Under the pieces are notes generated by a model. That model searched no databases. It was not told where the DNA came from and saw only the letters and a list, made by a program, of their open reading frames with translations. From the NCBI RefSeq assembly GCF_900155605.1, contig NZ_LT707420.1, forward strand, positions 480,636 to 522,021: DNA of 41,386 bases. Direction: 5' to 3'. The DNA comes from Actinomyces marseillensis. GTDB taxonomy: Bacteria > Actinomycetota > Actinomycetes > Actinomycetales > Actinomycetaceae. Below, piece after piece: positions 12,248-27,242 of the stretch (the first letter of the stretch is position 1; every line of letters begins with the position of its first letter). The position numbers were made by a program, and so were the translations under genes.

Positions 12248-13402
12248 ATGGATACCACCACAGCCAAAGCATCGTGGACACGGCGCCACCCGCGCTTGTC
12301 CGCAGTGTTGTGGGCACTTCCCTACCTGGCTTTCCTGGCATTCCCCCTGGTCATGGTCCCGAGTGTCGAATCTTTCGGCATGACGGTAGTGATCCTGGCC
12401 CTCACTCTTGCAGTCGCAGTCGCCGATATCGCGATCTACGTCGTGAACCCAACCCCCGAATGGGGAGCACACATCAAGAAGCAGATGTGGATCTCGCACG
12501 GGATCTTGCTGGTTTTGGTGGTTGCGCTGGGGCTAGTTCTGGTCGCAGCCGGCGCATCGCGAGTGACCTCGGCACTTTTCATCACCTACTCAATTGCGGG
12601 CTGGAACCTTCAAGCACCTCGGAATTACGTGGTCCCCGGCCTGGTGGCGCTCGTCGGCTGGGAAGTGATCGCCATCTTGCTGCCCATTGGCAGCATTGAC
12701 GCACTGGCCTTGAGCTACGCGATCATCGCCCTGCTCATGGTTTTGGGCTTAACCCTGGCCGTGCGTCGCAGTTTCGACAACCGCCACTCAGAGGAACAAC
12801 GCCAACGTCAAGCAATCAGTCTGGTCCGCGAACGCGAACGCCTGCGTTTCGCCGGAGATCTACACGATATCCTCGGCCACTCGCTGACCGTCATCACCAT
12901 GAAGAACGAACTCACCCAGCGCCTGCTTTCCGTTGGAAAGATTGACGAGGCCGGTGAACAGATTGCGCAGACCCTGGAGTTATCCCGCCAAGCGAAAGAA
13001 GACTTGCGGGGGATCATTGCGGCCTCGCGCAGTTTGTCCCCGGAAGAAGAAGTGAATTTGGCACGCGAACTGTGCGAGCAAGCGGGGATTGAATTCACCG
13101 CCGATATCCGAGGCGACATTCCACCCGGCCCTCGCGCCTCCCTTGCTGCTCACATCATCCGTGAGGGAACTGCCAACGCTATTACCCACGCCCACCCCGA
13201 GAGCATCCGCGTGCGCCTGACTCCCACTGAGGTCCTCGTACGAAACGACGGATACTCGCAGAAGTACTCCTTGGCCTCGCGAGGTGGGGGAACGGGACTT
13301 GAGGGACTACGTGAGCGCGCGGCCTCGGAAGGGGATGTGACCTGGGGGAGTGAAGGGAGCACCTGGGAGCTGCGCTTGGCTTTTAAGGGCGAGGCGCTCT
13401 GA
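12248..13402 (+). CDS. NarL-type (DesK-like) sensor histidine kinase
   Basis: A membrane sensor kinase of 384 residues. Residues 10-170 contain about five or six transmembrane helices. The dimerisation/phosphoacceptor segment is RERLRFAGDLHDILGHSLTV, with the phosphorylated His206. The ATPase domain shows IIREGTANAITHAHP (N-box) and RGGGTGLEGLRERA (G-box). The start ATG 12248 has GGGAGAGGGAAG just upstream. It sits between the ABC permease and a response regulator, so it most likely senses the exported compound or envelope stress and controls the exporter. Confidence 0.93.
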   Translation: MDTTTAKASWTRRHPRLSAVLWALPYLAFLAFPLVMVPSVESFGMTVVILALTLAVAVADIAIYVVNPTPEWGAHIKKQMWISHGILLVLVVALGLVLVAAGASRVTSALFITYSIAGWNLQAPRNYVVPGLVALVGWEVIAILLPIGSIDALALSYAIIALLMVLGLTLAVRRSFDNRHSEEQRQRQAISLVRERERLRFAGDLHDILGHSLTVITMKNELTQRLLSVGKIDEAGEQIAQTLELSRQAKEDLRGIIAASRSLSPEEEVNLARELCEQAGIEFTADIRGDIPPGPRASLAAHIIREGTANAITHAHPESIRVRLTPTEVLVRNDGYSQKYSLASRGGGTGLEGLRERAASEGDVTWGSEGSTWELRLAFKGEAL

Positions 13403-13452
13403 GCTGCGTGTACGATTGACGAGTCAAGTACTCGCGCTTCGAAGGACGCCGC

Positions 13453-14082
13453 ATGATTCACGTGATTGTGGTCGACGACCAGGCCCTGATCCGTGGTGCC
13501 TTGAGTGCGCTCATTGACCTCGAGGACGACATGGAAGTTGTCGCTCAGGTGGGTAATGGGCACGAGGCCTTGGCTGCAATCGAGGCCCACACGAGCGCAC
13601 ATCCGGGCAGCGAGGTCCCGCTGGTCGTGATCATGGACGTGGAAATGCCCGTCATGGATGGGATCAGTACTGCCACTGCACTGAAAGAACGAGGATCGGC
13701 CGCGCGCGTACTCATGGTGACAACCTTCGGGCGCCCCGGCTACGTCCAGCGCGCACTCGATGCAGGAGCATTGGGTTTCGTTGTCAAGGACGCTCCCGCT
13801 GCTCAACTGCTCGATGCAATTCGTCGAACCTCACAGGGACTTCGCGTCGTCGACCCCGCACTCGCGGTCGATGCGCTCACGAAAGGCCAAAGCCCGCTCA
13901 GCGCCCGCGAAGTTGAGGTACTGCGCGCTTTCGAAAGTGGCGGGACCGTGGAGGACGTGGCCTCGGAGCTCATGCTGTCGGCGGGGACGGTACGCAACTA
14001 CGTGAGCTCGGCGATGGATAAGACCCACGCGCACACGCGCGCCGAAGCGCTCAAGGTCGCGACTGAGAATGGGTGGTTGTAA
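13453..14082 (+). CDS. LuxR/NarL family response regulator
   Basis: A 209-residue DNA-binding regulator and partner of the upstream kinase. The receiver domain has the acidic pair in VVDDQ, phospho-acceptor Asp62 in VVIMDVEMPVMDG, the conserved Thr in VTTF and Lys in VVKD. The C-terminal helix-turn-helix runs LSAREVEVLRAF to LMLSAGTVRNYVSSAMDKTHAHTR. Its ATG has GAAGGA 7 nt upstream. A likely target is the palindrome at 10235 in front of the operon. Confidence 0.94.
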   Translation: MIHVIVVDDQALIRGALSALIDLEDDMEVVAQVGNGHEALAAIEAHTSAHPGSEVPLVVIMDVEMPVMDGISTATALKERGSAARVLMVTTFGRPGYVQRALDAGALGFVVKDAPAAQLLDAIRRTSQGLRVVDPALAVDALTKGQSPLSAREVEVLRAFESGGTVEDVASELMLSAGTVRNYVSSAMDKTHAHTRAEALKVATENGWL

Positions 14083-14093
14083 ACTGAGATTCC

Positions 14094-15800
14094 ATGGTAA
14101 ACAGCTATGGACGTCGACAAGACGCACAGGAAAACATCACTCGCCACATCTTTGTCACCGGAGGTGTGGTTTCTTCTTTAGGTAAGGGTTTGACGGCCTC
14201 GTCGCTGGGGCGCCTGCTGCGTTCACGCGGTCTGAGCGTTGCCATGCAGAAGCTCGATCCCTACATCAATGTCGATCCGGGAACCATGAATCCCTTCCAA
14301 CACGGTGAGGTTTTCGTCACGGAAGATGGCGCGGAAACCGACCTTGATATCGGCCACTACGAGCGCTTCTTGGACGTGAACCTCTCCGGCGCGGCGAATG
14401 CGACCACCGGTCAGGTGTACTCCACTGTTATCGCAAAGGAACGCCGCGGCGAATACTTGGGTGACACCGTCCAGGTCATTCCCCACATCACGGATGAGAT
14501 CAAGCGCGTCATGCGCGCGCAGGCCATCCCCGATGCCGAGGGGAACGCTCCCGATGTCATCATCACGGAAATTGGCGGAACCGTGGGCGATATCGAGTCC
14601 CAGCCCTTCTTGGAGGCCGCGCGTCAGGTGCGCGCCGACCTGGGTCGTGACAATGTCGCATTCGTTCACGTCGCGCTGATTCCCTTCCTGCCTGCGGCTG
14701 GTGAACTCAAGACCAAGCCGACCCAGCACTCGGTTGCGACCCTGCGTTCGATCGGTATCCAGCCCGATGCCCTAGTGTTGCGTACGGACCGCCCGCTGCC
14801 CGAGGGAATCAAGGGCAAGGTTGCGCTCATGTGCGATGTTGACCGCGATGCTGTCATCGAATGCAAGGATGCGGCCTCTATTTATGAGGTCCCCCCGACA
14901 CTGCACCGCGAGGGCTTGGATGCATTCCTGGTCCAGCGACTGGGCTTGGCGTTCCGCGATGTGGACTGGAGTGAGTGGAACGAGCTCCTTGAGCGCGTCG
15001 AGTCCCCGAAGTACCGCGTCGAGGTCGCCTTGGTTGGAAAGTACATCAACCTGCACGACGCTTACCTTTCGGTTTCCGAGGCTGTTAAGCACGGTGGTTT
15101 TGCGAATAATGCGCGCGTAGACCTGCGTTGGGTTGCCTCTGACACCTGCGAGACTCCCGAGGGAGCGCAGAAGGCACTCGAAGGCGTGGACGCGATCATC
15201 GTCCCCGGTGGTTTCGGCATCCGAGGCATTGAAGGCAAGCTGGGTGCGCTGCGGTGGGCGCGCGAGCATAAGATCCCGACCCTTGGCCTGTGCTTGGGCT
15301 TGCAGTGCATGGTGATCGAGGCCGCGCGTGATCTGTTGGGGTTGACGGGGGCCTCGTCGACCGAGATGGATCCCGAGACGCCGGATCCGGTCGTTCACAC
15401 GATGGACTCCCAGGTCGACATTGTTGAGGGCGATGGTGATCTGGGTGGGACCATGCGACTGGGCGCCTACCCCGCGGTCCTTCAAGAGGGTTCTGTTGTC
15501 GCCGAGGCCTATGGCAAGACCCAGGTTTCGGAGCGCCACCGTCACCGTTTCGAGGTCAACAACGACTACCGCGATCAGCTGGAATCGGTTGGCCTGCACA
15601 TCTCGGGTACTTCCCCCGATGGGAACCTGGTCGAGTTTGTCGAGCTGGATCGCTCCATGCACCCCTACTATGTAGCAACTCAGGCGCACCCCGAGTTCAA
15701 GTCGCGTCCGACGAAGGCTCATCCGCTATTCGCGGGCCTCGTTCGCGCGGCACTTGAGCGTCACGTCGAGAAGTACGCCGCGCGAGGCGGACGCAAGTAA
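14094..15800 (+). CDS. pyrG: CTP synthase
   Basis: Makes CTP from UTP, ATP and glutamine. The synthetase domain starts [18 protein letters not shown] (P-loop) and continues with [20 protein letters not shown]. The glutamine amidotransferase domain has nucleophile Cys400 in [11 protein letters not shown] and the His532/Glu534 pair in QAHPEF. The length of 568 residues is normal. There is no clear Shine-Dalgarno at ATG 14094; TAAACT lies 8 nt upstream, so transcription may start nearly at the ATG. It is 11 bp after the response regulator stop but functionally unrelated. Confidence 0.97.
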
Positions 15801-15817
15801 GGGGTGTAGGGTCTGAG

Positions 15818-15852
15818 GGCTTTGGCTCCGGCTTTGGCTCTGTCTTTGGCTC
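15818..15852 (+). repeat. Three tandem 12-bp units downstream of pyrG
   Basis: GGCTTTGGCTC occurs at 15818-15828 and 15830-15840, and with one change at 15842-15852, giving a 12-bp period. The following 45 bp remain pyrimidine-rich with related CTTTAGCTC and CCTGGTTT words that lead into the 70-bp palindrome. No coding role is evident. Confidence 0.6.
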
Positions 15853-15898
15853 CCTCACTCCTGGTTTCCTGCTCTACCTCCGTCTTTAGCTCCCTCTT

Positions 15899-15968
15899 TC
15901 CTGGTTTAGCTCACAGATTCCTGGCCTATGAACGCTCATACGTCAGGAATCAACGAGCTAAACCAGGA
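15899..15968. repeat. 70-bp palindromic element, copy A
   Basis: The outer arms TCCTGGTTTAGCTC and GAGCTAAACCAGGA (14 bp, perfect) enclose an inner stem GATTCCTG/CAGGAATC and a small TATGA/TCATA tip. Copy B at 30620-30689 has the same length, the same GGCCTATGA word at offset 24, and arms differing by one compensating base pair. It lies between pyrG and the tracrRNA gene and could act as a terminator-like or mobile palindromic repeat. Confidence 0.8.
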
Positions 15969-16015
15969 GATGGGGCGGGGGCAGAGCGGGGAATTGATGT
16001 TGTTTGAATAGTTGC

Positions 16016-16045
16016 TTGCGTGAAGTGATGACCAGGGCTTATAGT
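16016..16045 (+). promoter_or_regulatory. Candidate tracrRNA promoter
   Basis: TTGCGT (16016-16021) and TATAGT (16040-16045) are separated by 18 bp and resemble a sigma-70-type promoter. A start about 6-8 nt after TATAGT would place the tracrRNA 5' end at the antirepeat. Confidence 0.5.
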
Positions 16046-16050
16046 TGTGC

Positions 16051-16125
16051 CAACTGATTCTCAATAAGGTACCGACAGGTTAGCGGTACTGATTGCTCCA
16101 CCGGCCTTCGGGCCGGTATTTTTTT
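16051..16125 (+). ncRNA. tracrRNA
   Basis: The antirepeat 16052-16065 (AACTGATTCTCAAT) pairs with bases 1-14 of the CRISPR repeat without a gap, including two G-U pairs. It is followed by a stem GTACCG/CGGTAC (16069-16074 with 16084-16089, 9-nt loop). A terminator hairpin follows, ACCGGCC-TTCG-GGCCGGT (16100-16117), with seven T residues after it. The RNA would be about 75 nt, encoded just before and on the same strand as cas9. A further short block (GTTG at 16044-16047) could pair with CAAT in the repeat past an internal loop if transcription starts earlier, so the 5' end is uncertain. Confidence 0.88.
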
Positions 16126-16141
16126 ACCTCGATGCGCATGG

Positions 16142-16168
16142 TTGACACGGTTCACACAGCTTTAAAAT
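16142..16168 (+). promoter_or_regulatory. Candidate cas9 operon promoter
   Basis: A perfect TTGACA (16142-16147) is followed by TAAAAT (16163-16168) with a short 15-bp spacer, about 60 bp before the cas9 ATG and directly after the tracrRNA terminator. No Shine-Dalgarno precedes cas9. An alternative is a leaderless start, since CATGAT lies 6 nt before ATG 16230. Confidence 0.45.
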
Positions 16169-16229
16169 CGCTGAAAAATAGCTGCGGAAACTGTACAAAA
16201 ATGCTTGTTGTCTGTGGCATGATTTCCCC

Positions 16230-19200
16230 ATGACAAAGATTAATGATGATCTTCGCTACCGTGTCGGCATTGACGTCGGCTTGAAATCAATTGGTTTTTG
16301 CGCGGTTGAGGTTGATGACAAGGATCAGCCATTGCGCCTGTTGAACTCCATGGTGTTCATTCACGACGCCGGTGTTGACCCGAATGAGAATAAGGCCGCG
16401 AAGAGCCGTAAGCTCACTGCGGGCGTCGCTCGGCGGACTCAGCGCAGAACCGCTCAGAATAGGCGCCGTCTTGCGGAGCTCGACCGTGTGCTATCTGAAG
16501 AACTGCATTGGCCCCTGCCGAATCTTGAGGATTTTGAGGATCCCTACGAGCCGTGGCATACCCGCGCGGAGCTTGTCGATCACTACATTGAGGACGAATC
16601 CGAGCGCTTGGAAGCACTGTCGATTGCGGTCAGGCACATGGCTCGACATCGTGGGTGGAGGAATCCATATATCAAGGTTGATTCGCTCCTGACTCCGGTG
16701 GAGCCCAGCGAATTCCTTCGCGGTCTAAATGAACGCGTCGGTGAGGCGCTGGGGCGGGAGTTTCCTGAGGAAACAACGCCGGGCCAATTGATTAGCGAAT
16801 ACATGAGCGATCCGAAGTACAGGGAAAGCAACGGTATCCGTGGAGACGATGGTATTCTCCAGGGCAAGCTTCACCAATACGACAATACCGCTGAAATTCG
16901 AAAGATCTGCGAAATCCAGAGATTGGACCATGATGTGTTTAAGCTCTTGGTCCGCAAAGTTTTCTTCGCAAAGTCACCTAGGGGGAGTGCCGCGGGACTT
17001 GTCGGTCATGATCAACTCCCGGGTCAGGGCAAATTCATCCGTGCAGAGAAAGCGCATCCTGATTTCCAGCTCTTCCGGATTGTTTCAGTGCTGACGAATC
17101 TGCGTGTTCGTGAGGCAGGAGCGGAACGTTGTCTGACACCCGAAGAACTGAGCGGGCTGACAGATTTCCTTCTCGATGCGGGGCTGAAACAGCAGGTGAC
17201 TTGGGCCGATCTAGCGGATAACTTGGGTATCGAGCGCGCTGACTTGCGTGGAACGGCACGTCCCTCAGTTGATGGAGAGCCCGCATTGCGTTTCCCGCCA
17301 ACAGATGTCACTACCGAGATGATCATGGCTTCAAAGGTGAAGTGGCTCAAGGAATGGTGGAAGTCTGCGGATAGTGAGCGACGCGGATTCATGGTCGATG
17401 CTCTGTCGAATTCGGGAGGTTCGACGGGTGACGACGACATCGATGATGAAGTTGCAGAGCTTCTTGAGGCAGCGACGGAAGATGAACAGGCTGAACTGGA
17501 AAAGATCCAGCTTCCTCAAGGACGAGCGGCCTATTCCTTGGATAGCTTACGCAAGCTCACGGAGCGGATGCTGGCTGAGGGCGCGGACCTGCACACTGCA
17601 CGAAAGCAGCTTTTTAATGTCGATGATGATTGGCGACCAGAACCCGAGCCGATTGAGGCTCCGGTTGGAAACCCCGCAGTTGACCGTGTTCTCAAGCAGG
17701 TTGCACGTTGGCTCAATATGGCTACGGATCGCTGGGGTGAACCGGTCGTTATCAATATTGAGCACACGCGTGATGGTTTGGGTTCGGAGAAGGTTGCCAG
17801 AGAGCTATTGCGTGAGAGCCAGAGGCGGCAGGATCTCAACCAGAAAAATATGGATGAGATGATCCAGCAACTGGGAATTTCAGGTAAGGCGCGCCGTTCT
17901 GCTCTAGTGAAGCACCAGGCAATTCAACGTCAGAATTCGATGTGCTTGTACTGTGGAACCGCGATTGGCTTTGAAACGGCAGAAATGGATCATATTGTTC
18001 CGCGTGCAAGTTCAGGATCTTCGAATGAGCGTTCGAATCTTGCCGCTGTCTGCCGTACCTGTAACCATCAAAAGGGTGCAGTGCCCTTTGCTGTGTGGGC
18101 GACCTCGGGTCAGGCGCACGCAGGTGTTTCTTTAGAGGGTGCAATCGAGCGAGTCCGTGCGTGGGAACGCGATCCGGCTATGAGTCCGAAGCAATATGCT
18201 CATTTCCGTAAGGAGGTGATTTCCCGCCTGAAGTCGCGTAAGCCGGATGAAGAGTTCGACGGACGTTCCATGGAGTCCGTTGCATGGATGGCGATTGAGC
18301 TCCGTACGCGTATTGATGGCTTCTACCGGAAGCTCAAAGCAGAGTCGGTCCCAAGCATTGGTATTTATCGCGGTCAGTTGACTGCGGAAGCGCGCAAGGC
18401 CTCGGGATTTGAAAATCGCGTCAACCTGATTGGTGGAAAGGGAAAGACGCGTTTTGATCGCAGGCACCATGCGATGGATGCCTTGGTAATTGCACTGATG
18501 AACCAGTCTGTTTCACAGACCTTGGCGTTGCGCGTCAACATGCGGGAATCGCAGCGCATCACCGGCCAGGAAGAAACTTGGAAGAACTTCTATGGGAAGC
18601 CGGGTCAAGCCAGCGAACGTTTTGAGCAATGGCGTGAAGGAATGCTTCGTGCGGTCGAGCTCTTCAATATTGAGCTCGCGAAGAATGCTATTCCTTTCCA
18701 TGAGAATGTTCGTCTGCGTGTCGGTTCAAGCAAGGTTCACGACGATACGGTTCGAAAGTTCATTCACGCGAAGCTTGGCGAAGCTCTGTCTGTCGCAATG
18801 ATCGATCGCGCGGAAACACCTGCGCTGTGGACTGCATTGACCAGGCTTCCTGACTTTGATCCGAAGGAGGGGCTACCTGAAGATCAGTCACGGGAGATCT
18901 ATATCCACGGTCGGAAGATTACCGCTGATGAGGAGCTGAACTTCTTCAATTCGCCATCTGCCTGTTTGAAGGTTCGTGGTGGCTATGTGGAGATTGGAAG
19001 CTCGATTCACCACGCGAGGGTCTACCGGATCGATGGGAAGAAAACCACCTACGCTATGGTGCGTGTTTTTGCTACGGACCTGGTGAAGATGACTCACGAA
19101 GATGTCTTCACTACGCCGCTGAAAGCATCGACGATTTCCATGCGTACTGCTGAGCCGAAGATTCGGAAGGCACTAGCTGACGGAACGGCCACTCAGATCG

Positions 19201-19541
19201 GCTGGCTGGTTGAAGGCGATGAGCTGCAGATCGAGACGGATAAGTACACGAGCGGGTCTGTCGGTAATGTGCTTGCTCAGTATCCACAGCTCATAAGCTG
19301 GCGGGTTGCGGGTTTCTACGGCGTGACGCAGTTGCGACTACGCCCTTACATGCTGGCTGCAGAAGGGATTCCATCTGACGCCTCAGATAGCTTGAGAAAA
19401 GTTGTTGAGGGAAAAGGCTGGCTTCCGGCAATTAATACGCTTTTGTCGTCGGGTGATGTTTGGGTTGTTCGGCGAAATTCTCTTGGTGAAGTGCGGTTCA
19501 GCACTAAGGATTCACTTCCAGTTACTCACCTGCTGAGGTAG
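16230..19541 (+). CDS. cas9: Cas9 endonuclease, type II-C
   Basis: The RNA-guided nuclease of the CRISPR system. RuvC-I has GIDVGLKSIGFC with catalytic Asp15. An Arg-rich bridge helix follows (RRTQRRTAQNRRRL). RuvC-II has VVINIEHTRDG with Glu511. The HNH domain has EMDHIVPRASSGS with His588, flanked by CLYC and CRTC pairs that would bind zinc. RuvC-III has RRHHAMDALVIA with His747 and Asp750. The remaining 350 residues would hold the wedge and PAM-interacting domains. All nuclease residues are present, so it should be active. The length of 1103 residues is close to the compact Actinomyces naeslundii Cas9, and the absence of csn2 and cas4 places it in II-C. The coding sequence looks lower in GC than pyrG, suggesting acquisition. 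Confidence 0.97.
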   Translation: MTKINDDLRYRVGIDVGLKSIGFCAVEVDDKDQPLRLLNSMVFIHDAGVDPNENKAAKSRKLTAGVARRTQRRTAQNRRRLAELDRVLSEELHWPLPNLEDFEDPYEPWHTRAELVDHYIEDESERLEALSIAVRHMARHRGWRNPYIKVDSLLTPVEPSEFLRGLNERVGEALGREFPEETTPGQLISEYMSDPKYRESNGIRGDDGILQGKLHQYDNTAEIRKICEIQRLDHDVFKLLVRKVFFAKSPRGSAAGLVGHDQLPGQGKFIRAEKAHPDFQLFRIVSVLTNLRVREAGAERCLTPEELSGLTDFLLDAGLKQQVTWADLADNLGIERADLRGTARPSVDGEPALRFPPTDVTTEMIMASKVKWLKEWWKSADSERRGFMVDALSNSGGSTGDDDIDDEVAELLEAATEDEQAELEKIQLPQGRAAYSLDSLRKLTERMLAEGADLHTARKQLFNVDDDWRPEPEPIEAPVGNPAVDRVLKQVARWLNMATDRWGEPVVINIEHTRDGLGSEKVARELLRESQRRQDLNQKNMDEMIQQLGISGKARRSALVKHQAIQRQNSMCLYCGTAIGFETAEMDHIVPRASSGSSNERSNLAAVCRTCNHQKGAVPFAVWATSGQAHAGVSLEGAIERVRAWERDPAMSPKQYAHFRKEVISRLKSRKPDEEFDGRSMESVAWMAIELRTRIDGFYRKLKAESVPSIGIYRGQLTAEARKASGFENRVNLIGGKGKTRFDRRHHAMDALVIALMNQSVSQTLALRVNMRESQRITGQEETWKNFYGKPGQASERFEQWREGMLRAVELFNIELAKNAIPFHENVRLRVGSSKVHDDTVRKFIHAKLGEALSVAMIDRAETPALWTALTRLPDFDPKEGLPEDQSREIYIHGRKITADEELNFFNSPSACLKVRGGYVEIGSSIHHARVYRIDGKKTTYAMVRVFATDLVKMTHEDVFTTPLKASTISMRTAEPKIRKALADGTATQIGWLVEGDELQIETDKYTSGSVGNVLAQYPQLISWRVAGFYGVTQLRLRPYMLAAEGIPSDASDSLRKVVEGKGWLPAINTLLSSGDVWVVRRNSLGEVRFSTKDSLPVTHLLR

Positions 19542-19545
19542 AACC

Positions 19546-20457
19546 ATGGCTGAACAGTGGCGCGTGATTGACCTCTGTGAGTTCCAGGGAACACTTCATT
19601 CCACACGAGGTGGGATAGAGGTGTGTCCTGAGGGCAAGGAGCCAGTCACTCTTCCCGTTGCAGAGCTTGCGGTTGTTCTCATCGGGATGAAGGTTGATCT
19701 TAGTGCTGCTGTTCTGCACCGGCTTGCGGATGCAGATGTTGCGGTTCTCTTCTGTGATTGGAGGGGGATTCCTGAAGGTGGTTGTTATTCCTGGTCGGAT
19801 CACGGACGGGTAGCAGCTCGTCACCGGGCTCAGGCTGACATGACTCTTCCTCGAAAGAAAAACGCGTGGGCACGCATCATTAGAGCAAAGATTGAGGGAC
19901 AGGCAAACGTTCTTCAGAATCTCGGTCGTTCAGGGAGTAGTGAGCTTTTTGCACTCGCGGATCAAGTTCGCTCAGGTGACCCCGACAATATTGAGGCTCG
20001 TGCAGCGCGTTTTTACTGGTCGCGTGTTCTAGGTGAGGGGCGACAGCCCGGTGCTGGTCAGCTCATTGGTTCGAATGCGTGTCTTGATTATGGATACGCT
20101 GTGTTGCGTGGTCATGTGATTCGGGCGGTACTGTCCGCTGGATTAGCTCCGGCGTTAGGTGTCTTTCATCGTGGAAGGGGCAATGCTTTCGCGCTTGCAG
20201 ATGACCTCATCGAACCTTTCCGCCCGGCGATTGATGAAGTCGCTCTGCAATTGTCTCCAACTGCATCTCCTTCAGATAGTGATGTGAAGCGGGTATTGGT
20301 TGCTGCGGCTTCACAGAAGTTCGATGCGGTTGGTTACGGCATTTCAGCAGTTGCCCAAGATCTTGCGCAGCAATACGGGCGTTATGTTGAAGGAGAAGAA
20401 GAGCGTCTAAAAGTTCCCTCATGGCAGGGACCCGCATCCACTGATCTGAGTGGTTGA
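19546..20457 (+). CDS. cas1: Cas1 integrase
   Basis: The metal-dependent integrase that inserts new spacers together with Cas2. Catalytic residues are visible: Glu150 in NIEARAARFYW, His208 in VFHRGRGNAF and Asp220 in LADDLIEPFRP. The length of 303 residues is normal for type II Cas1. It starts 4 nt after the cas9 stop and its stop lies 1 nt before the cas2 ATG, so the three genes form one operon. All active-site positions are intact, implying the array could still grow. Confidence 0.96.
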   Translation: MAEQWRVIDLCEFQGTLHSTRGGIEVCPEGKEPVTLPVAELAVVLIGMKVDLSAAVLHRLADADVAVLFCDWRGIPEGGCYSWSDHGRVAARHRAQADMTLPRKKNAWARIIRAKIEGQANVLQNLGRSGSSELFALADQVRSGDPDNIEARAARFYWSRVLGEGRQPGAGQLIGSNACLDYGYAVLRGHVIRAVLSAGLAPALGVFHRGRGNAFALADDLIEPFRPAIDEVALQLSPTASPSDSDVKRVLVAAASQKFDAVGYGISAVAQDLAQQYGRYVEGEEERLKVPSWQGPASTDLSG

Positions 20458-20458
20458 G

Positions 20459-20779
20459 ATGGTGGATAGTCCCATGTGGTGCCTGGTCATGTTTGATCTT
20501 CCGGTTGAAACAAAAGCCCAGAGGCGGGAAGCGACGCGGTTTAGACAAGCGTTGCTGGATTGGGGATTCACAATGGTCCAGTTCAGTGTTTACGCAAAAT
20601 ACTGGCCAAGCGGTGGGCAGAACCATTCCACCCTTCGACAAATCCAGTCGCATCTTCCCGAAGGCGGTCAAGTGCGGGTTATCGGTATTACTGACCGTCA
20701 ATGGGCCACGGGACTGCATTTTGAACAGGCTAAGAAACAGAAAACGGAGGGGGCTCCTGAGCAGCTCACTATCTTCTGA
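20459..20779 (+). CDS. cas2: Cas2
   Basis: The structural partner of Cas1 in spacer integration. It shows the ferredoxin-like start MWCLVMFDLPVETKAQRREA with the conserved Asp after MF, the FTMVQFSVYAKYW strand, and the QLTIF end typical of type II Cas2. ATG 20459 sits next to the cas1 stop; ATG 20474 (MWCLVMF) is an alternative start. The last codons and the TGA (20777-20779) overlap the first, degenerate CRISPR repeat (20773-20808), so there is no leader between cas2 and the array. Confidence 0.95.
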   Translation: MVDSPMWCLVMFDLPVETKAQRREATRFRQALLDWGFTMVQFSVYAKYWPSGGQNHSTLRQIQSHLPEGGQVRVIGITDRQWATGLHFEQAKKQKTEGAPEQLTIF

Positions 20780-23752
20780 ATTACGAGTCAATCCTCTTGA
20801 TAGACTTCGGGTATAGGCAGTGGGGAACACGCTGCAGTTGGGAATCAGTTACCAATCCTCTTGATAGACTTCCACGCACCGTTGAGTGCGAGCATCTGGC
20901 GTTGGGAATCAGTTACCAATCCTCTTGATAGACTTCCCGGCTGCGCGCATTGCCTCGCCAAGCGGTTGGGAATCAGTTACCAATCCTCTTGATAGACTTC
21001 CATTGAGCGGTTTGTTCCCCGGAATCAAGTTGGGAATCAGTTACCAATCCTCTTGATAGACTTCCGCGAGATGTCTGAGAAAATGGTATTAGGTTGGGAA
21101 TCAGTTACCAATCCTCTTGATAGACTTCTGGGGACCATCGAGGCCGCGCGACTCACGTTGGGAATCAGTTACCAATCCTCTTGATAGACTTCGCTACGGC
21201 GCGCCACTCCCCGCGCATAAGTTGGGAATCAGTTACCAATCCTCTTGATAGACTTCTCCACGTGCCTAAACCACAGGTCGCCCGGTTGGGAATCAGTTAC
21301 CAATCCTCTTGATAGACTTCCGCCTGCGGTTAGGACGAAGATCGTCGCGTTGGGAATCAGTTACCAATCCTCTTGATAGACTTCAAGGCATGGCTGAGCG
21401 CGACCTGGCGGGGTTGGGAATCAGTTACCAATCCTCTTGATAGACTTCAGGCAACTCGTCAACCTTACTAGCATCCGTTGGGAATCAGTTACCAATCCTC
21501 TTGATAGACTTCGCCACGCAAGATCGTCCGCTTCCTCAGCGTTGGGAATCAGTTACCAATCCTCTTGATAGACTTCGGTTCCTTGCTCTGCTACGCGCCG
21601 TTTAGTTGGGAATCAGTTACCAATCCTCTTGATAGACTTCATGCAGTTGCTTGAGGTCATCGAGGCTGGTTGGGAATCAGTTACCAATCCTCTTGATAGA
21701 CTTCGTTGGGGTTTGTGGAGTGTGGGGCCAAGGTTGGGAATCAGTTACCAATCCTCTTGATAGACTTCCTCGCCCGCCTCTAGGGAACACAAAAAGGTTG
21801 GGAATCAGTTACCAATCCTCTTGATAGACTTCAACGAGCTGATCGGCCTCGGCGCCGACCGTTGGGAATCAGTTACCAATCCTCTTGATAGACTTCAAAG
21901 GGCAGTGCGTCACGCCGCGATTCTGTTGGGAATCAGTTACCAATCCTCTTGATAGACTTCCAACCTCAGAATCCAACTCAATATGAACGTTGGGAATCAG
22001 TTACCAATCCTCTTGATAGACTTCTGACCTCGGCGCTGCATACCATCCGCGAGTTGGGAATCAGTTACCAATCCTCTTGATAGACTTCAAATCGAAAGAT
22101 TTATAACCACCCCCGGGTTGGGAATCAGTTACCAATCCTCTTGATAGACTTCCCAGAAGCCATCATGCCAATAAGCGGCAGTTGGGAATCAGTTACCAAT
22201 CCTCTTGATAGACTTCTGCAAGTCTGGAAAGAAGGAACCGCCCGGTTGGGAATCAGTTACCAATCCTCTTGATAGACTTCCGCTCCACCTCCACGTCTCG
22301 GATGCAGTGTTGGGAATCAGTTACCAATCCTCTTGATAGACTTCAGACAATCCTTCGTAAATAACCGCTGCAGTTGGGAATCAGTTACCAATCCTCTTGA
22401 TAGACTTCAGTCGATGCCTCAGCTCTCGAATGCTTTGTTGGGAATCAGTTACCAATCCTCTTGATAGACTTCCCATCCGCCCGCTTCGCTAGAATCAACC
22501 GTTGGGAATCAGTTACCAATCCTCTTGATAGACTTCGGTTAGGGGCGGTTTGACTTCTTTAAGTGTTGGGAATCAGTTACCAATCCTCTTGATAGACTTC
22601 CCCATCCGCCAAGCCCTGCAAAAGCTGCGTTGGGAATCAGTTACCAATCCTCTTGATAGACTTCATAATTAGGGCCAAGGTTGCGGCCTGATGTTGGGAA
22701 TCAGTTACCAATCCTCTTGATAGACTTCGGTTAATCCCGCGCGTGCCGCTTGGATCGTTGGGAATCAGTTACCAATCCTCTTGATAGACTTCACCGAACA
22801 ACTCTTAACCCGCGAATACGGTTGGGAATCAGTTACCAATCCTCTTGATAGACTTCTTGCGTTGACCCCGCACGCATCGGCGGCGTTGGGAATCAGTTAC
22901 CAATCCTCTTGATAGACTTCTGATCTATTGAGGTTATCCTGCGCTTGGGTTGGGAATCAGTTACCAATCCTCTTGATAGACTTCACCCCAGCAGCCTTCC
23001 AAGAATCAGCCAGTTGGGAATCAGTTACCAATCCTCTTGATAGACTTCCGCCGACGCGATCACCGCCTACAAGGTCGTTGGGAATCAGTTACCAATCCTC
23101 TTGATAGACTTCTGATGATGATGTATCCGACAGTCACTCCGTTGGGAATCAGTTACCAATCCTCTTGATAGACTTCAGCTGACCTGCTTCGAGGTCTCGG
23201 ATCTGTTGGGAATCAGTTACCAATCCTCTTGATAGACTTCCCCTGTCGCTTCTTTCACGATCGCGTCGGTTGGGAATCAGTTACCAATCCTCTTGATAGA
23301 CTTCCGCGACGGTGATACCGAGCGTGACGATGGTTGGGAATCAGTTACCAATCCTCTTGATAGACTTCTCGCAGGTCATCGATGAGATCGGAGTCGGTTG
23401 GGAATCAGTTACCAATCCTCTTGATAGACTTCAAAGACACGGCCGACGGACTCGAAATCAGTTGGGAATCAGTTACCAATCCTCTTGATAGACTTCCGGA
23501 CCAGATCGAACGCTACAAGGACGAGTTGGGAATCAGTTACCAATCCTCTTGATAGACTTCCGCACTTCTTTGCAGATCGCACGAGCGCGTTGGGAATCAG
23601 TTACCAATCCTCTTGATAGACTTCGGATTGAATGGGCACAAGGTGTGCCGTGGTTGGGAATCAGTTACCAATCCTCTTGATAGACTTCCATCGCGTGCTC
23701 GGGGCGATGACGCTGCGTTGGGAATCAGTTACCAATCCTCTTGATAGACTTC
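20773..23752 (+). CRISPR. Type II-C CRISPR array: 46 identical repeats plus 1 degenerate, 46 spacers of 28 nt
   Basis: Full repeats (36 bp, beginning GTTGGGAATCAGTT and ending CTTGATAGACTTC) start at 20837 and recur every 64 bp without exception up to 23717. All intervening spacers are exactly 28 nt. A degenerate repeat at 20773-20808 keeps bases 17-36 intact but differs at nine positions in its first 16, and it fits the same 64-bp period, giving 46 spacers in all. Pairing with the tracrRNA shows that crRNAs are made from the plus strand. Each repeat contains TGATAGACT near its 3' end, an extended -10 promoter motif. No repeat variants were seen among the 46. Confidence 0.99.
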
Positions 23753-23763
23753 AGAGGATTGGT
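23731..23763 (+). promoter_or_regulatory. Hairpin joining the last CRISPR repeat to its flank
   Basis: Immediately after the last repeat, 23753-23763 (AGAGGATTGGT) is the exact reverse complement of repeat bases 15-25 (ACCAATCCTCT, 23731-23741). The two could form an 11-bp stem with an 11-nt loop, followed by TTTTCCC. It may end pre-crRNA transcription or mark the acquisition end of the array. Confidence 0.6.
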
Positions 23764-23785
23764 TTTCCCTTGGAATAGCAAGGTT

Positions 23786-23822
23786 TTCGGGGCTTCGAAC
23801 GATTAAAATTCGAAGCCCCGAA
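23786..23822 (+). terminator. Terminator hairpin between the array and the lacI-type gene
   Basis: A perfect 14-bp stem (TTCGGGGCTTCGAA / TTCGAAGCCCCGAA) with a 9-nt loop is followed on the plus strand by CGCTATTTTTCGC. It lies between the array and the convergent regulator gene, so it probably ends array transcripts and may also stop the regulator mRNA. Confidence 0.75.
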
Positions 23823-23885
23823 CGCTATTTTTCGCACTTTTCGGCATCTACGGAAGAAAAACTGAAGCCTACATGCGGCCTCACG

Positions 23886-24986
23886 CTATGTCCGATCTGC
23901 CCCAACAACCGTATTTCCGGGCACGAAGATCGGATCAAGCAGGGTCAGACCATGCACAGGGCGGCGGATCTTCGCCTCGGAATCTGCCGACGTCACGGAA
24001 CCGGCGGCTACAGCTTCCGCGGCCGCTTCCTTTTGGGGCTCGCCATCAATTTGGGCGACCAACATTTCAACCGCACGCCTCAATAGCTCGCCGGGGCGCG
24101 TATCAAAGTGATCGACATCGAATAGGCAGTGCGCGCGCTCGGCAGACCAGCCGCTGGCTACCAGCGAGACATCACGGCCGGGACGAATCTCCAGATCGAT
24201 CAGGGCGTTGCACCAGTCATCCGCAGAGATCGTCGGCCCCAAAATGTAGGAATCAATCCGATTATCACCGGCAATTTGCCCAACGAGCTTACGGATTTCG
24301 CGAATTCCCGTCCCGCACGTGCGCGAGAGCAAAGGAATCCCGGACTCGCCCGCCGTATCAACAACCGCCTGCCTGAACTGCGAGACGAAGTTCAACGATT
24401 GCACATCGGGGCTTGCCGAATGGACGAAAGCAATGTTGCGCGCTCCCGCGTCACGCAGGCGGTGAACCGCGGCGCGCCCGGCCTCGTAATAATCAACGTC
24501 GATGGACTGGATCGGTGCATTAAAAGGCCCAGAGCCCGGGGTTCCAATGAAAACCGTGGGGATCTTGCTCTCTGCAACGACGCCCAAACGAGCATCATTG
24601 AAGCGCACCTCCATGATGAACAGGCCGTCACACAGCGCGGTCTGCATGACTCTTCGAAGCCCGGCGGCGCCCTCGTCGGCGGTGATCAACAGCAGGTCGA
24701 AATCGTGCTCGCGCAAGAGCTGCGCCAAAGTGATCAGCATGTAGTGCTGGGCCGCCGCGTCCGCTCCCTCGTGGTAGGGGACCACCACTCCCAGGACGCG
24801 GGACTTTCGTGAACGCAAGGATCGGGCACCCGCATGGGGCTGATACCCCAGCTCTTTCATTGCAATTTGGACACGCTTTTCCGTCTCGGGGGAGACGGCT
24901 CGGCGTCCACTCATGACATACGAGACCGTGGTTTGCGAGACTCCCGCTAGTTTTGCGACATCTCTGCTGGTTGGCTGACGCGCCAT
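23886..24986 (-). CDS. LacI family transcriptional regulator of the dextran/isomalto-oligosaccharide locus
   Basis: A sugar-responsive repressor. The N-terminal helix-turn-helix reads SRDVAKLAGVSQTTVSYVMS followed by the hinge helix PHAGARSLRS. Residues 60-290 form the periplasmic-binding-protein-like effector domain. A 60-residue Ala/Glu-rich extension and tail follow residue 300. The start ATG 24986 has GGAGG 7 nt upstream. It is divergent from the GH31 gene, and the gap between them holds two copies of a palindrome with a central CG, as expected of LacI-type operators. The effector is likely an isomalto-oligosaccharide or its breakdown product, which is inferred from the neighbours. Confidence 0.93.
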   Translation of the reverse strand: MARQPTSRDVAKLAGVSQTTVSYVMSGRRAVSPETEKRVQIAMKELGYQPHAGARSLRSRKSRVLGVVVPYHEGADAAAQHYMLITLAQLLREHDFDLLLITADEGAAGLRRVMQTALCDGLFIMEVRFNDARLGVVAESKIPTVFIGTPGSGPFNAPIQSIDVDYYEAGRAAVHRLRDAGARNIAFVHSASPDVQSLNFVSQFRQAVVDTAGESGIPLLSRTCGTGIREIRKLVGQIAGDNRIDSYILGPTISADDWCNALIDLEIRPGRDVSLVASGWSAERAHCLFDVDHFDTRPGELLRRAVEMLVAQIDGEPQKEAAAEAVAAGSVTSADSEAKIRRPVHGLTLLDPIFVPGNTVVGADRT

Positions 24987-25005
24987 CTCAGGTCCTCCCG
25001 GTATC

Positions 25006-25079
25006 TTGACAGGATCGCGTGAACAACTTATTGTGAGTTCCGCATCACATGTGCGGGCGTCGATGCCCGCAAATATTTT
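25006..25079 (+). promoter_or_regulatory. Promoter followed at once by an intrinsic terminator, upstream of GH31
   Basis: TTGACA (25006-25011) and TATTGT (25029-25034) are 17 bp apart. Starting about 7 nt later, the transcript meets the hairpin TGCGGGC-GTCGAT-GCCCGCA (25052-25071) followed by AATATTTTTT. This gives a predicted leader RNA of about 40 nt before the first operator. It may be an attenuator or an insulating terminator. Confidence 0.5.
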
Positions 25080-25087
25080 TTATCCGA

Positions 25088-25101
25088 CGAATACGTATGC
25101 G
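25088..25101. promoter_or_regulatory. Operator O1 (LacI-type)
   Basis: CGAATACGTATGCG matches the perfect palindrome at O2 with one change. It lies 91 bp before the GH31 start, just after the terminator-like hairpin, and 56 bp (centre to centre) from O2, a spacing compatible with looping. Confidence 0.7.
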
Positions 25102-25143
25102 TAATGAATAATACCAGAAAAACTCCTGAAAATTGTCATTAAA

Positions 25144-25157
25144 CGAATACGTATTCG
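25144..25157. promoter_or_regulatory. Operator O2 (LacI-type), perfect palindrome
   Basis: CGAATACGTATTCG is a perfect 14-bp palindrome 22 bp upstream of the GH31 start codon. It resembles LacI/GalR operators with their central CG. It probably blocks expression of the GH31-importer operon when no substrate is present. Confidence 0.75.
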
Positions 25158-25178
25158 TCCGGTCAAAAAGGAGCACAG

Positions 25179-27242
25179 GTGTACACGAAGAAGCAGTACC
25201 CCGGCGCAGTTGAACTCTGCTTCGCGCACGAGTTCATCCGCATTGAGGCATGGGGGCGCAATGCGCTTCGTGTGCGCATCGGCCCCTCTGCAGACTTCCC
25301 ACAAGGACTAGGAGCCCTCGAAGCGGGGCCTGCCACCGGCCTCGGGACAAGCACGGAAGAAGCAAAGGTCACCGAGATCCCCGGCTACGACACACCCGAA
25401 GAAGTCTTCACCAACGGGCGTATCAGCGTCGTTGCCAACCTTGACGGTGGAACAGGAATTGCCCGCTTCCTTCTGGATTTCCGCAAGGACGGCGAATCTA
25501 TCCTCCGCGAAGCCCCCGAGCACTTCTGGTGGCCAGGCGCCCACGGAATCTACCCCGGTTTCGGCGGACACGAAGTCCACCAGTGCTTCGCCTCCGACCC
25601 CGGCGAACGCTTCTACGGAATGGGACAACACTCCTACGATTTCCTCGATCACAAAGGAATCGTCTCTGACCTCATCCAACGCAACGGAGAAGTCTCCATC
25701 CCCTTCGTCCTCTCTGACAAGGGCTACGGATTCTTGTGGAACAACCCCTCCGTCGGCCGCGTCGAATTCGCCAAAGAAAGCACCCGCTGGGTCGCACAGC
25801 AAAGCGAGTGGATCGACTACTGGGTGTGCGTGGGCGATACCCCCAAGGAAATCCTCGAGGCCTATGCCGACGCGGTCGGCCACGCGCCGCGCATTCCGCA
25901 GTGGGCACTGGGCCTGTGGCAATCCAAGCTGCGCTACACCAGCCAAGAAGAACTCATGGATGTTGCGCGCGAATACAAGCGCCGCGGCCTGCCCCTGTCC
26001 GTGATCGTCACCGACTTCATCCACTGGCCCGCAATGGGGGAGTGGCGCTTCGACGAAAACGAATATCCAAATCCCGAGGCGATGATGGCCGAATTGGAGG
26101 AAATGGGTACGAAACTGATGGTTTCCGTGTGGCCAACAGTGTCACCTCTGGCTGAAACGGACGCAGAAATTCGCGCAAAGGGCCTCTTGGTCGGCACCGA
26201 AGCCGGAGTCGAATACCACCAAACATTCCGCGATAAGGGAATGGATCGGCCGCTCCCCGTCGCCTTCTACGACCCGACAAACCCCGCGGCCCGCGAGTAC
26301 GTCTGGAACAAGCTGAAGAACAACTACTTCGATCTGGGTGTCCGCGTGTTCTGGCTCGATGCCTGCGAACCTGAACTCAACCCCGGTCACCCCTCCAACC
26401 TGCGCTTCTACGCCGGAAGCGGCCTGAATGTCTCCAACCTCTACCCGCGCGAGAACGCGCGCATGGTCTGGGAAGGAATGCGCGAACAGGGTGAAGACGA
26501 ATTCCTCAGCCTGTGTCGCAGCGCGTGGGCCGGCCAAGCCAAGTACGGCTCGGCGGTATGGAGCGGCGATATTGCCCCCACCTGGGAAGCGCTCTTCACT
26601 CAGGTCCGAGCAGGCCAATCCATTGGAATCTCGGGGATCCCATGGTGGACCAGTGACATCGGCGGCTTCCACGGAGGCGACCCCAGCGACCCCGCGTACC
26701 AGGAGCTCTTCGCTCGCTGGTTCGAGTTCGGTACTTTCTGCCCGCTCATGCGCGTCCACGGTCACCGCGAACCCCGCGAGGACGTGGCCTCGGACAACCC
26801 CGGCGGACCCAACGAAATCTGGTCCTACGGTGAGGAAGTCGCACAGATCTGCGCACGCTACATCCACCTCAGGGAAGCGCTGCGCCCCTACATCGGCCGC
26901 GTCATGGACGAGGCCGCCGAGCGTGGAATCCCCCCGATGCGCGCACTCTTCCTCGAATTCCCCGAGGATCCGCGCGCGTGGGAAGAAGAAGGAGAATTCC
27001 TCCTTGGTCCCGACCTCCTTGTCGCCCCCATTGTCGAGGCCGGCGCCCGCAGCGCCCGCGTCTACCTTCCCGCGGGAGTGCGCTGGCAGCAGCTGCTGAT
27101 CGCAGGCGGCGAAGAAAAGGCAGGTACGGCCTCGTACACCCTGGGAGACGTCTTCGAGGGTGGGCAAGAGGTCACCATCGATGCACCACTTGAGTGCATC
27201 CCCGTATTTGTCCGTGAAAACACGGAACTTGGTAGTTGCTGA
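25179..27242 (+). CDS. GH31 family alpha-glycosidase (alpha-glucosidase/xylosidase type)
   Basis: A cytoplasmic retaining glycosidase with no signal peptide. The catalytic barrel shows nucleophile Asp394 in FWLDACEPEL and acid/base Asp464 in WSGDIAPTW, plus the substrate-binding blocks GISGIPWWTSDIGGFHGG and MRVHGHREPRE. The N-terminal 230 residues are the usual beta-sandwich. GTG 25179 has AAGGAG five nt upstream. It is the first gene of the importer operon under two LacI operators. Location suggests it attacks imported isomalto-oligosaccharides, possibly cyclic or branched ones. Several GH31 subfamilies act on alpha-1,6 or alpha-xylosidic bonds, and the specificity is not fixed by the motifs seen. 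Confidence 0.9.
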   Translation: MYTKKQYPGAVELCFAHEFIRIEAWGRNALRVRIGPSADFPQGLGALEAGPATGLGTSTEEAKVTEIPGYDTPEEVFTNGRISVVANLDGGTGIARFLLDFRKDGESILREAPEHFWWPGAHGIYPGFGGHEVHQCFASDPGERFYGMGQHSYDFLDHKGIVSDLIQRNGEVSIPFVLSDKGYGFLWNNPSVGRVEFAKESTRWVAQQSEWIDYWVCVGDTPKEILEAYADAVGHAPRIPQWALGLWQSKLRYTSQEELMDVAREYKRRGLPLSVIVTDFIHWPAMGEWRFDENEYPNPEAMMAELEEMGTKLMVSVWPTVSPLAETDAEIRAKGLLVGTEAGVEYHQTFRDKGMDRPLPVAFYDPTNPAAREYVWNKLKNNYFDLGVRVFWLDACEPELNPGHPSNLRFYAGSGLNVSNLYPRENARMVWEGMREQGEDEFLSLCRSAWAGQAKYGSAVWSGDIAPTWEALFTQVRAGQSIGISGIPWWTSDIGGFHGGDPSDPAYQELFARWFEFGTFCPLMRVHGHREPREDVASDNPGGPNEIWSYGEEVAQICARYIHLREALRPYIGRVMDEAAERGIPPMRALFLEFPEDPRAWEEEGEFLLGPDLLVAPIVEAGARSARVYLPAGVRWQQLLIAGGEEKAGTASYTLGDVFEGGQEVTIDAPLECIPVFVRENTELGSC

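Follow-up and report, generated by a model that had tools for sequence, protein, structure and literature searches.

The CRISPR repeats of Neisseria type II-C systems reportedly carry promoters. In C. jejuni, crRNAs are initiated at promoters that lie in the repeats preceding them (PMC3656092). Pearson 2015 predicted repeat promoters over 58 II-C species; in Haemophilus, Clostridium and Bacillus the -10 runs up to the final base of the repeat, and in actinobacterial Acidothermus the box is moved a few nt inward (PMC4607530). A survey of more than 650 II-C systems described a first repeat mutated mostly in its first 15 nt. Its authors held that this extra repeat needs to keep promoter function, and proposed that the loss of tracrRNA pairing avoids extraneous crRNA (PMC12080349). 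II-C repeat promoters have been treated as general (PMC12638026, PMC12814883). Riemerella, whose repeats were reported to lack promoters (PMC5006608), is an exception.

We analyzed a locus of this kind in a 41,386-nt stretch of DNA, hereafter the window. It holds cas9 (16230..19541, + strand, 1103 aa), a type II cas1 (19546..20457, +) and cas2 (20450..20779, +). Neither csn2 nor cas4 was present among the six ORFs tested, and the flanking ORFs are CTP synthase, a response regulator, and a LacI-type regulator. A cas9 of ~1,000–1,150 aa together with cas1 and cas2, with no adjoining csn2 or cas4, and a tracrRNA with complementarity to the repeat 5' half identify the system as a type II-C CRISPR-Cas9 locus of an Actinomyces-like bacterium. 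Among named relatives, Actinomyces sp. S6-Spd3 (L026) is the nearest as judged by Cas9 (94%). An Rfam search restricted to positions 13000–26000 returned nothing at gathering level, and weak microRNA matches were taken as chance. Incidentally, we noticed that TGGTATTAT, also of the extended -10 form, lies at 25108–25116 (−), ~120 nt before the LacI-type regulator gene (23886–24986, −).

With only cas9-cas1-cas2, a tracrRNA and a -10 box in the 3' part of the repeat, the window resembles C. jejuni and N. meningitidis, in which transcription starts in each spacer are described (PMC3656092); in the window, such starts are predicted. It likewise resembles the Pearson 2015 set, with its gnTAnaaT -10 box at the repeat 3' end and degenerate proximal repeat, but arrays of that set are convergent with the cas genes and the window array is co-directional (PMC4607530).

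The tracrRNA was found upstream of cas9 (16052..16125, +). It comprises a 14-nt anti-repeat (16052–16065) complementary to repeat nt 1–14, a nexus-like hairpin and a terminator hairpin with a T-run. A putative -10 (TATAGT, 16040..16045, +) was recognized from its sequence, and the tracrRNA start is predicted near 16052, that is, at the first anti-repeat base. This tracrRNA fixes the crRNA strand as +, so that repeat nt 26–34 point into the following spacer. A tracrRNA located after the array (23753 onward), where AGAGGATTGG complements the repeat, was rejected, since the anti-repeat was found at 16052, a layout before cas9 like that of most relatives tested.

The array proper (20837..23752, +) consists of 46 perfect 36-nt repeats and 28-nt spacers, with a period of exactly 64 throughout, and an extra degenerate repeat, probably the oldest, stands at its start (20773..20808, +). 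Repeat nt 26–34 read TGATAGACT, then TC. As the original prediction had noted, all 47 repeats fit the extended -10 form TGnTAnnnT at this position, from the degenerate repeat (20798..20806, +) to the last one (23742..23750, +), whose promoter would fire into the leader. The window contained 53 TGnTAnnnT matches, 47 of them in the array, versus 26.1 ± 5.4 in whole-window shuffles, and only 6 lay beyond the array in 76,772 positions of both strands. The motif is spaced for a start within the spacer. It had been said to occupy the same place as the promoters of Neisseria and Campylobacter repeats. It lies in the 3' part of the repeat, as they do, but ends 2 nt before the last repeat base, which is where the -10 of C. 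jejuni and N. meningitidis ends.

We next compared the repeat across actinobacteria. An array was detected in 62 of 78 named actinobacterial loci fetched by Cas9 profile; at the 16 others, the detector found no array in the stretch examined. With the window, the comparison set amounted to 63 loci and 55 distinct repeats, L104 having been dropped as a copy of the window. This sample of 63 actinobacterial loci, the tree-based column counts and the tracrRNA mapping add to the prediction of Pearson 2015 (PMC4607530). The repeat ended with TGnTAnnnT plus 1–2 nt at 62 of the 63 loci, the sole exception being L075, with CGATAGACT, and five additional loci fit the same ending by eye. When repeats were aligned on the motif and changes counted on the Cas9 tree, the successive letters changed as follows: T 1, G 0, n 6, T 0, A 0, n 18, n 4, n 2, and T 0. 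Each of the 12 columns before the motif changed 6–19 times; the motif is kept beyond its neighbors. When repeats were aligned on their ends, with no selection for the motif, the fixed letters changed 1, 3, 3, 3, and 3 times (13 in all), the first n of TAnnnT 17 times and the last repeat base 16 times; the higher counts are partly due to a few repeats having the motif one base nearer the end or an uncertain boundary. Free variation at the first n, with the T, the A, and the last T held fixed, resembles a -10 element, and Gardnerella repeats (L071 and L095), with TGATATAAT, match the textbook extended -10.

The tracrRNA half of the repeat was conserved too, several of its columns showing 0–3 changes, hence the contrast offered by the motif is with the repeat middle. 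Still, the motif lies outside the pairing part. A repeat–tracrRNA duplex above the cut-off was found before cas9 at 55 of 62 loci tested (L027 was left out, having too little sequence before cas9), and spanned nt 2–13 in 55/55 cases and nt 30–36 in 0/55, although L028, L039, and perhaps L096 look like chance matches among them.

Our reading is that an extended -10 promoter stands at the end of every repeat, which would make each spacer transcribable alone, and we put its probability at roughly 0.8. Transcription by RNA polymerase carrying the housekeeping sigma factor would begin ~5 nt inside each spacer (2–10 nt allowed), giving a crRNA guide of ~24 nt. The tracrRNA, transcribed from a promoter of its own upstream of cas9, would pair with nt 1–14 of the downstream repeat, and the crRNA 3' end would be trimmed at that paired repeat. 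The original prediction of one promoter per repeat is well supported by the comparison, namely by the near-constant motif, its few changes on the tree, its location outside the tracrRNA part and the low conservation of the start-side flank, and fits the published II-C systems, while promoter activity, start site, guide length, and 3' trimming are all four what we infer from these data. As for its claim that crRNAs arise without full processing, initiation would provide the 5' end, but trimming guided by the tracrRNA would still be needed at the 3' end.

A generic -35/-10 scan missed the repeat because it has no -35, and the extended -10 is the one element from which we propose a promoter. TGnTAnnnT was not significantly enriched in 502 upstream regions of these genomes (50 versus 41.3 ± 6.1), and neither were plain TAnnnT and TATAAT in the same regions. 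Because these latter motifs were also unenriched and gene calls were crude, this test had little power; in it, the motif came first among 20 permutations of its letters, with a sense to antisense ratio of 50:25. TAnnnT stands before about 97% of 2,591 starts in C. glutamicum (PMC3890552). In M. tuberculosis, no more than 7% of TAnnnT promoters have the TGn; those of the TGnTAnnnT form make up the strongest class, 90 starts falling on its 511 copies (PMC3898074).

A different cause for the conservation of the repeat 3' end would be spacer acquisition. In type II-C arrays, the leader and the site of new spacers adjoin the last repeat at its 3' end, and this end might be conserved because Cas1-Cas2 reads it, its promoter likeness being incidental, a possibility that we consider unlikely. 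The flanks speak in its favor, the 3' leader being conserved and the 5' flank mostly not: for pairs with 50–80% Cas9 identity, the 50 nt after the last repeat scored 0.59–0.67 versus 0.46 when shuffled, and the 60 nt before the first repeat 0.47 versus 0.465–0.47 (56 loci). Below 50%, leaders were barely alike (0.49 versus 0.465), and among the closest pairs (n = 15, Cas9 at least 80%) the 5' flank was conserved as well (0.63 versus 0.48). Also, the C of TAnACT, the second-last -10 letter, was kept in 59 of 63 repeats, and a -10 element does not require a C before its final T. As this C and the next-to-last T of the repeat changed only 3 and 5 times, respectively, in the end-aligned repeats, a second constraint, such as recognition by Cas1-Cas2, is likely, which makes the promoter slightly less probable and recognition by Cas1-Cas2 slightly more so. 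Yet, such recognition accounts poorly for a very last repeat base that is free (13–16 changes), for a first n of TAnnnT as free as any column, for a motif that in L027, L028, and L034 sits 1 nt off its usual distance from the repeat end, and for leader-distal first repeats that mostly keep the motif (25 of the 29 with any mismatch). Transcription of the array from outside, here by read-through of the co-directional cas9-cas1-cas2, appears unlikely to us. The cas operon does run in the array direction without a gap, cas2 overlaps the degenerate repeat by 7 nt, and the only site ahead of the array that resembles a terminator is a stem of 5 pairs inside cas2 (20751–20767), in a scan that as a whole returned no more such sites than shuffles did. 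However, arrays with the same repeat motif were antiparallel to cas at 59 of the 63 loci and at all five additional ones, that is, 64/68, where read-through from cas would be antisense and cannot make the crRNAs, and no start-side flank was conserved beyond the closest pairs. Transcription from within the array is the simplest reading.

The original prediction had also used the degenerate first repeat, arguing that selection for promoter function alone would leave its 3' half. In the window, the last 20 nt of this repeat are indeed identical to the perfect copies and its 9 mismatches all fall within the first 16 nt. However, 20773–20779 are the last codons and stop of cas2, so that a gene reaches into the 5' half, and decay alone does not account for its state. 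First repeats could be counted at 57 of the 63 loci, six with an array reaching the sequence edge being left out. Mismatches occurred in 29 of them, at 101/406 positions in nt 1–14, 38/322 in the middle, and 4/55 in the tail; within the motif, they affected 8/145 fixed and 13/116 free letters. The motif was intact in 25 of the 29 and broken in L039, which lacks the -10, L047, probably a chance match, L053, which lacks the 3' half, and L069. At the 21 loci with 2–14 mismatches, fixed letters bore 6 mismatches, against 19.8 expected if these were placed at random (0 of 20,000). When only the last 18 nt were considered, however, there was no significant sparing of the motif (6 versus 9.4 expected, P 0.09). 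Hidden half-repeats sought one period upstream gave five candidates, 2 of which keep the motif. Collectively, the 5' half of first repeats decays and the 3' half lasts, a pattern in line with that of the survey of more than 650 II-C systems (PMC12080349), and the promoter is not singled out. The argument drawn from the first repeat thus retains its observation, in the window as in relatives, and loses the step to promoter selection alone; it is weaker than claimed because the same outcome is expected from recombination, from avoidance of extraneous crRNA and, in the window, from an inversion breakpoint where cas2 stops. For the first repeat only, we see an even chance that its 5' half was lost through an inversion joint at the cas2 stop, relaxed need or avoidance of extraneous crRNA, and that its 3' half was refreshed by recombination, deletions between repeats importing the 3' side from an inner perfect repeat. 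Consistent with this, the first 7 nt belong to cas2, and mutated II-C first repeats, mostly in their first 15 nt, are published (PMC12080349). Furthermore, no spacer of the window recurs in L026 with up to 3 mismatches allowed; the old end of the array has therefore probably turned over. The first repeats of the two differ at 4/13 versus 1/16 positions of the two parts (P 0.14). Such losses and repairs leave unexplained why the motif is conserved in the repeat family itself.

The orientation of the window array deserves comment. Besides the window and L026, arrays running in the direction of cas were seen only at L101 (record ‘Bacterium D16-34’) and L103 (an Atopobiaceae MAG). The convergence usual in II-C systems, albeit not strictly defining, is absent from the window and L026. 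The window carries its degenerate repeat at the array 5' end, where it meets the cas2 stop, and a conserved leader at the 3' end, as would fit the addition of new spacers at the crRNA-sense 3' end, and this 3' flank resembles the leaders located between cas2 and the array in relatives (cf. L028). Leader and array were probably inverted together just after the cas2 stop (window 20773–23832; L026 14543–15988). Shared spacers, which we sought as a sign of polarity, were found at none of the 63 loci (equal length, up to 3 mismatches). L101 and L103 are II-C-like and have degenerate repeats with a decayed 3' half at the array 3' end, hence their acquisition end may be the other one.

Repeat promoters being already known in II-C systems, the less expected part, worth a second look, is a helix between leader and repeat at the presumed acquisition end. 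The window leader begins with an inverted copy of repeat nt 15–25 (AGAGGATTGGT), then TTTCCC (23753..23769, +). In RNA, this stretch could form a hairpin with the last repeat: an 11-pair stem with loop TGATAGACTTC and TTT after it (23717–23769). A second, terminator-like hairpin (GGGGCTTCGAA...TTCGAAGCCCC) with a T-run follows (23789..23832, +). It also contributes to the fold of last spacer, repeat, and leader (z −5.7), and might terminate transcription from the promoter of the last repeat, in which case a short leader RNA would result. The inverted copy was also considered as a reversed promoter, and this was rejected by eye, several copies losing -10 letters.

Leaders paired with their own repeat, mostly at repeat nt 19–29, better than shuffled leaders did at 43 of the 63 loci at p < 0.05 (37 at p < 0.01) and not at the other 20. 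Own leader–repeat pairs summed to 705, whereas 5,000 shuffles of the labels gave 451 on average and never more than 498 (60 loci; L090, L101, and L103 were left out), and the own repeat beat 95% of diverged repeats at 37/60 loci. Pairs were then counted in 17 Bifidobacteriaceae, chosen as their stem lies in one register; from 19 candidate sequences, L095 (identical to L071) and L089 (37-nt repeat) had been left out, and L057, in another register, was never included. Across a 14-pair helix, 86% of cells were paired versus 75% when shuffled (0 of 500), with 31 double-change cells versus 9.8 (0 of 500), a signal abolished by sliding the partners. The number of pair types was not exceptional in this helix (16 versus 14.7; 140 of 500). 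In the nine core pairs, 153/153 cells pair, five of them as G-U. These controls ignore relatedness or rest on a chosen set. The frequency of T in the four bases after 39 strong stems was 0.46–0.72 versus a background of 0.28, and TTTT within 10 nt of the stem occurred at only 17/63 loci. A second inverted block in the leader, with p < 0.05 at 11 of 36 loci tested (L090 left out), is at most suggestive.

We tentatively propose, at slightly less than even odds, that in many actinobacterial II-C leaders an inverted copy of the middle and 3' portion of the repeat co-evolves with the repeat of its own species, and that the hairpin, with the T-rich stretch after it, terminates the newest spacer's transcript or assists in its processing. 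This transcript would come from the upstream repeat promoter, the hairpin would leave repeat nt 1–14 free for the tracrRNA, and in the antiparallel layout it would stop array transcripts before an antisense run into cas2. A neutral alternative is that template switching keeps the two halves alike. Our literature search, made largely without subscription papers, returned no report of a leader–repeat helix at the acquisition end. Leader hairpins at the array 5' end are published for II-A, II-C, and type VI systems (PMC12080349; PMC13187072). The authors of PMC12080349 examined the region upstream of the array and state that in II-C a hairpin between leader and extra repeat was not found; the window helix lies at the opposite, presumed acquisition end.

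If each repeat is a promoter, the array would work at any place and in either orientation, and this would explain how the present lineage could turn its array over without losing it. For actinobacterial Cas9 systems, it predicts transcription starts ~5 nt into every spacer. The co-varying leader–repeat helix adds a second testable idea, on how the transcript of the newest crRNA may end.
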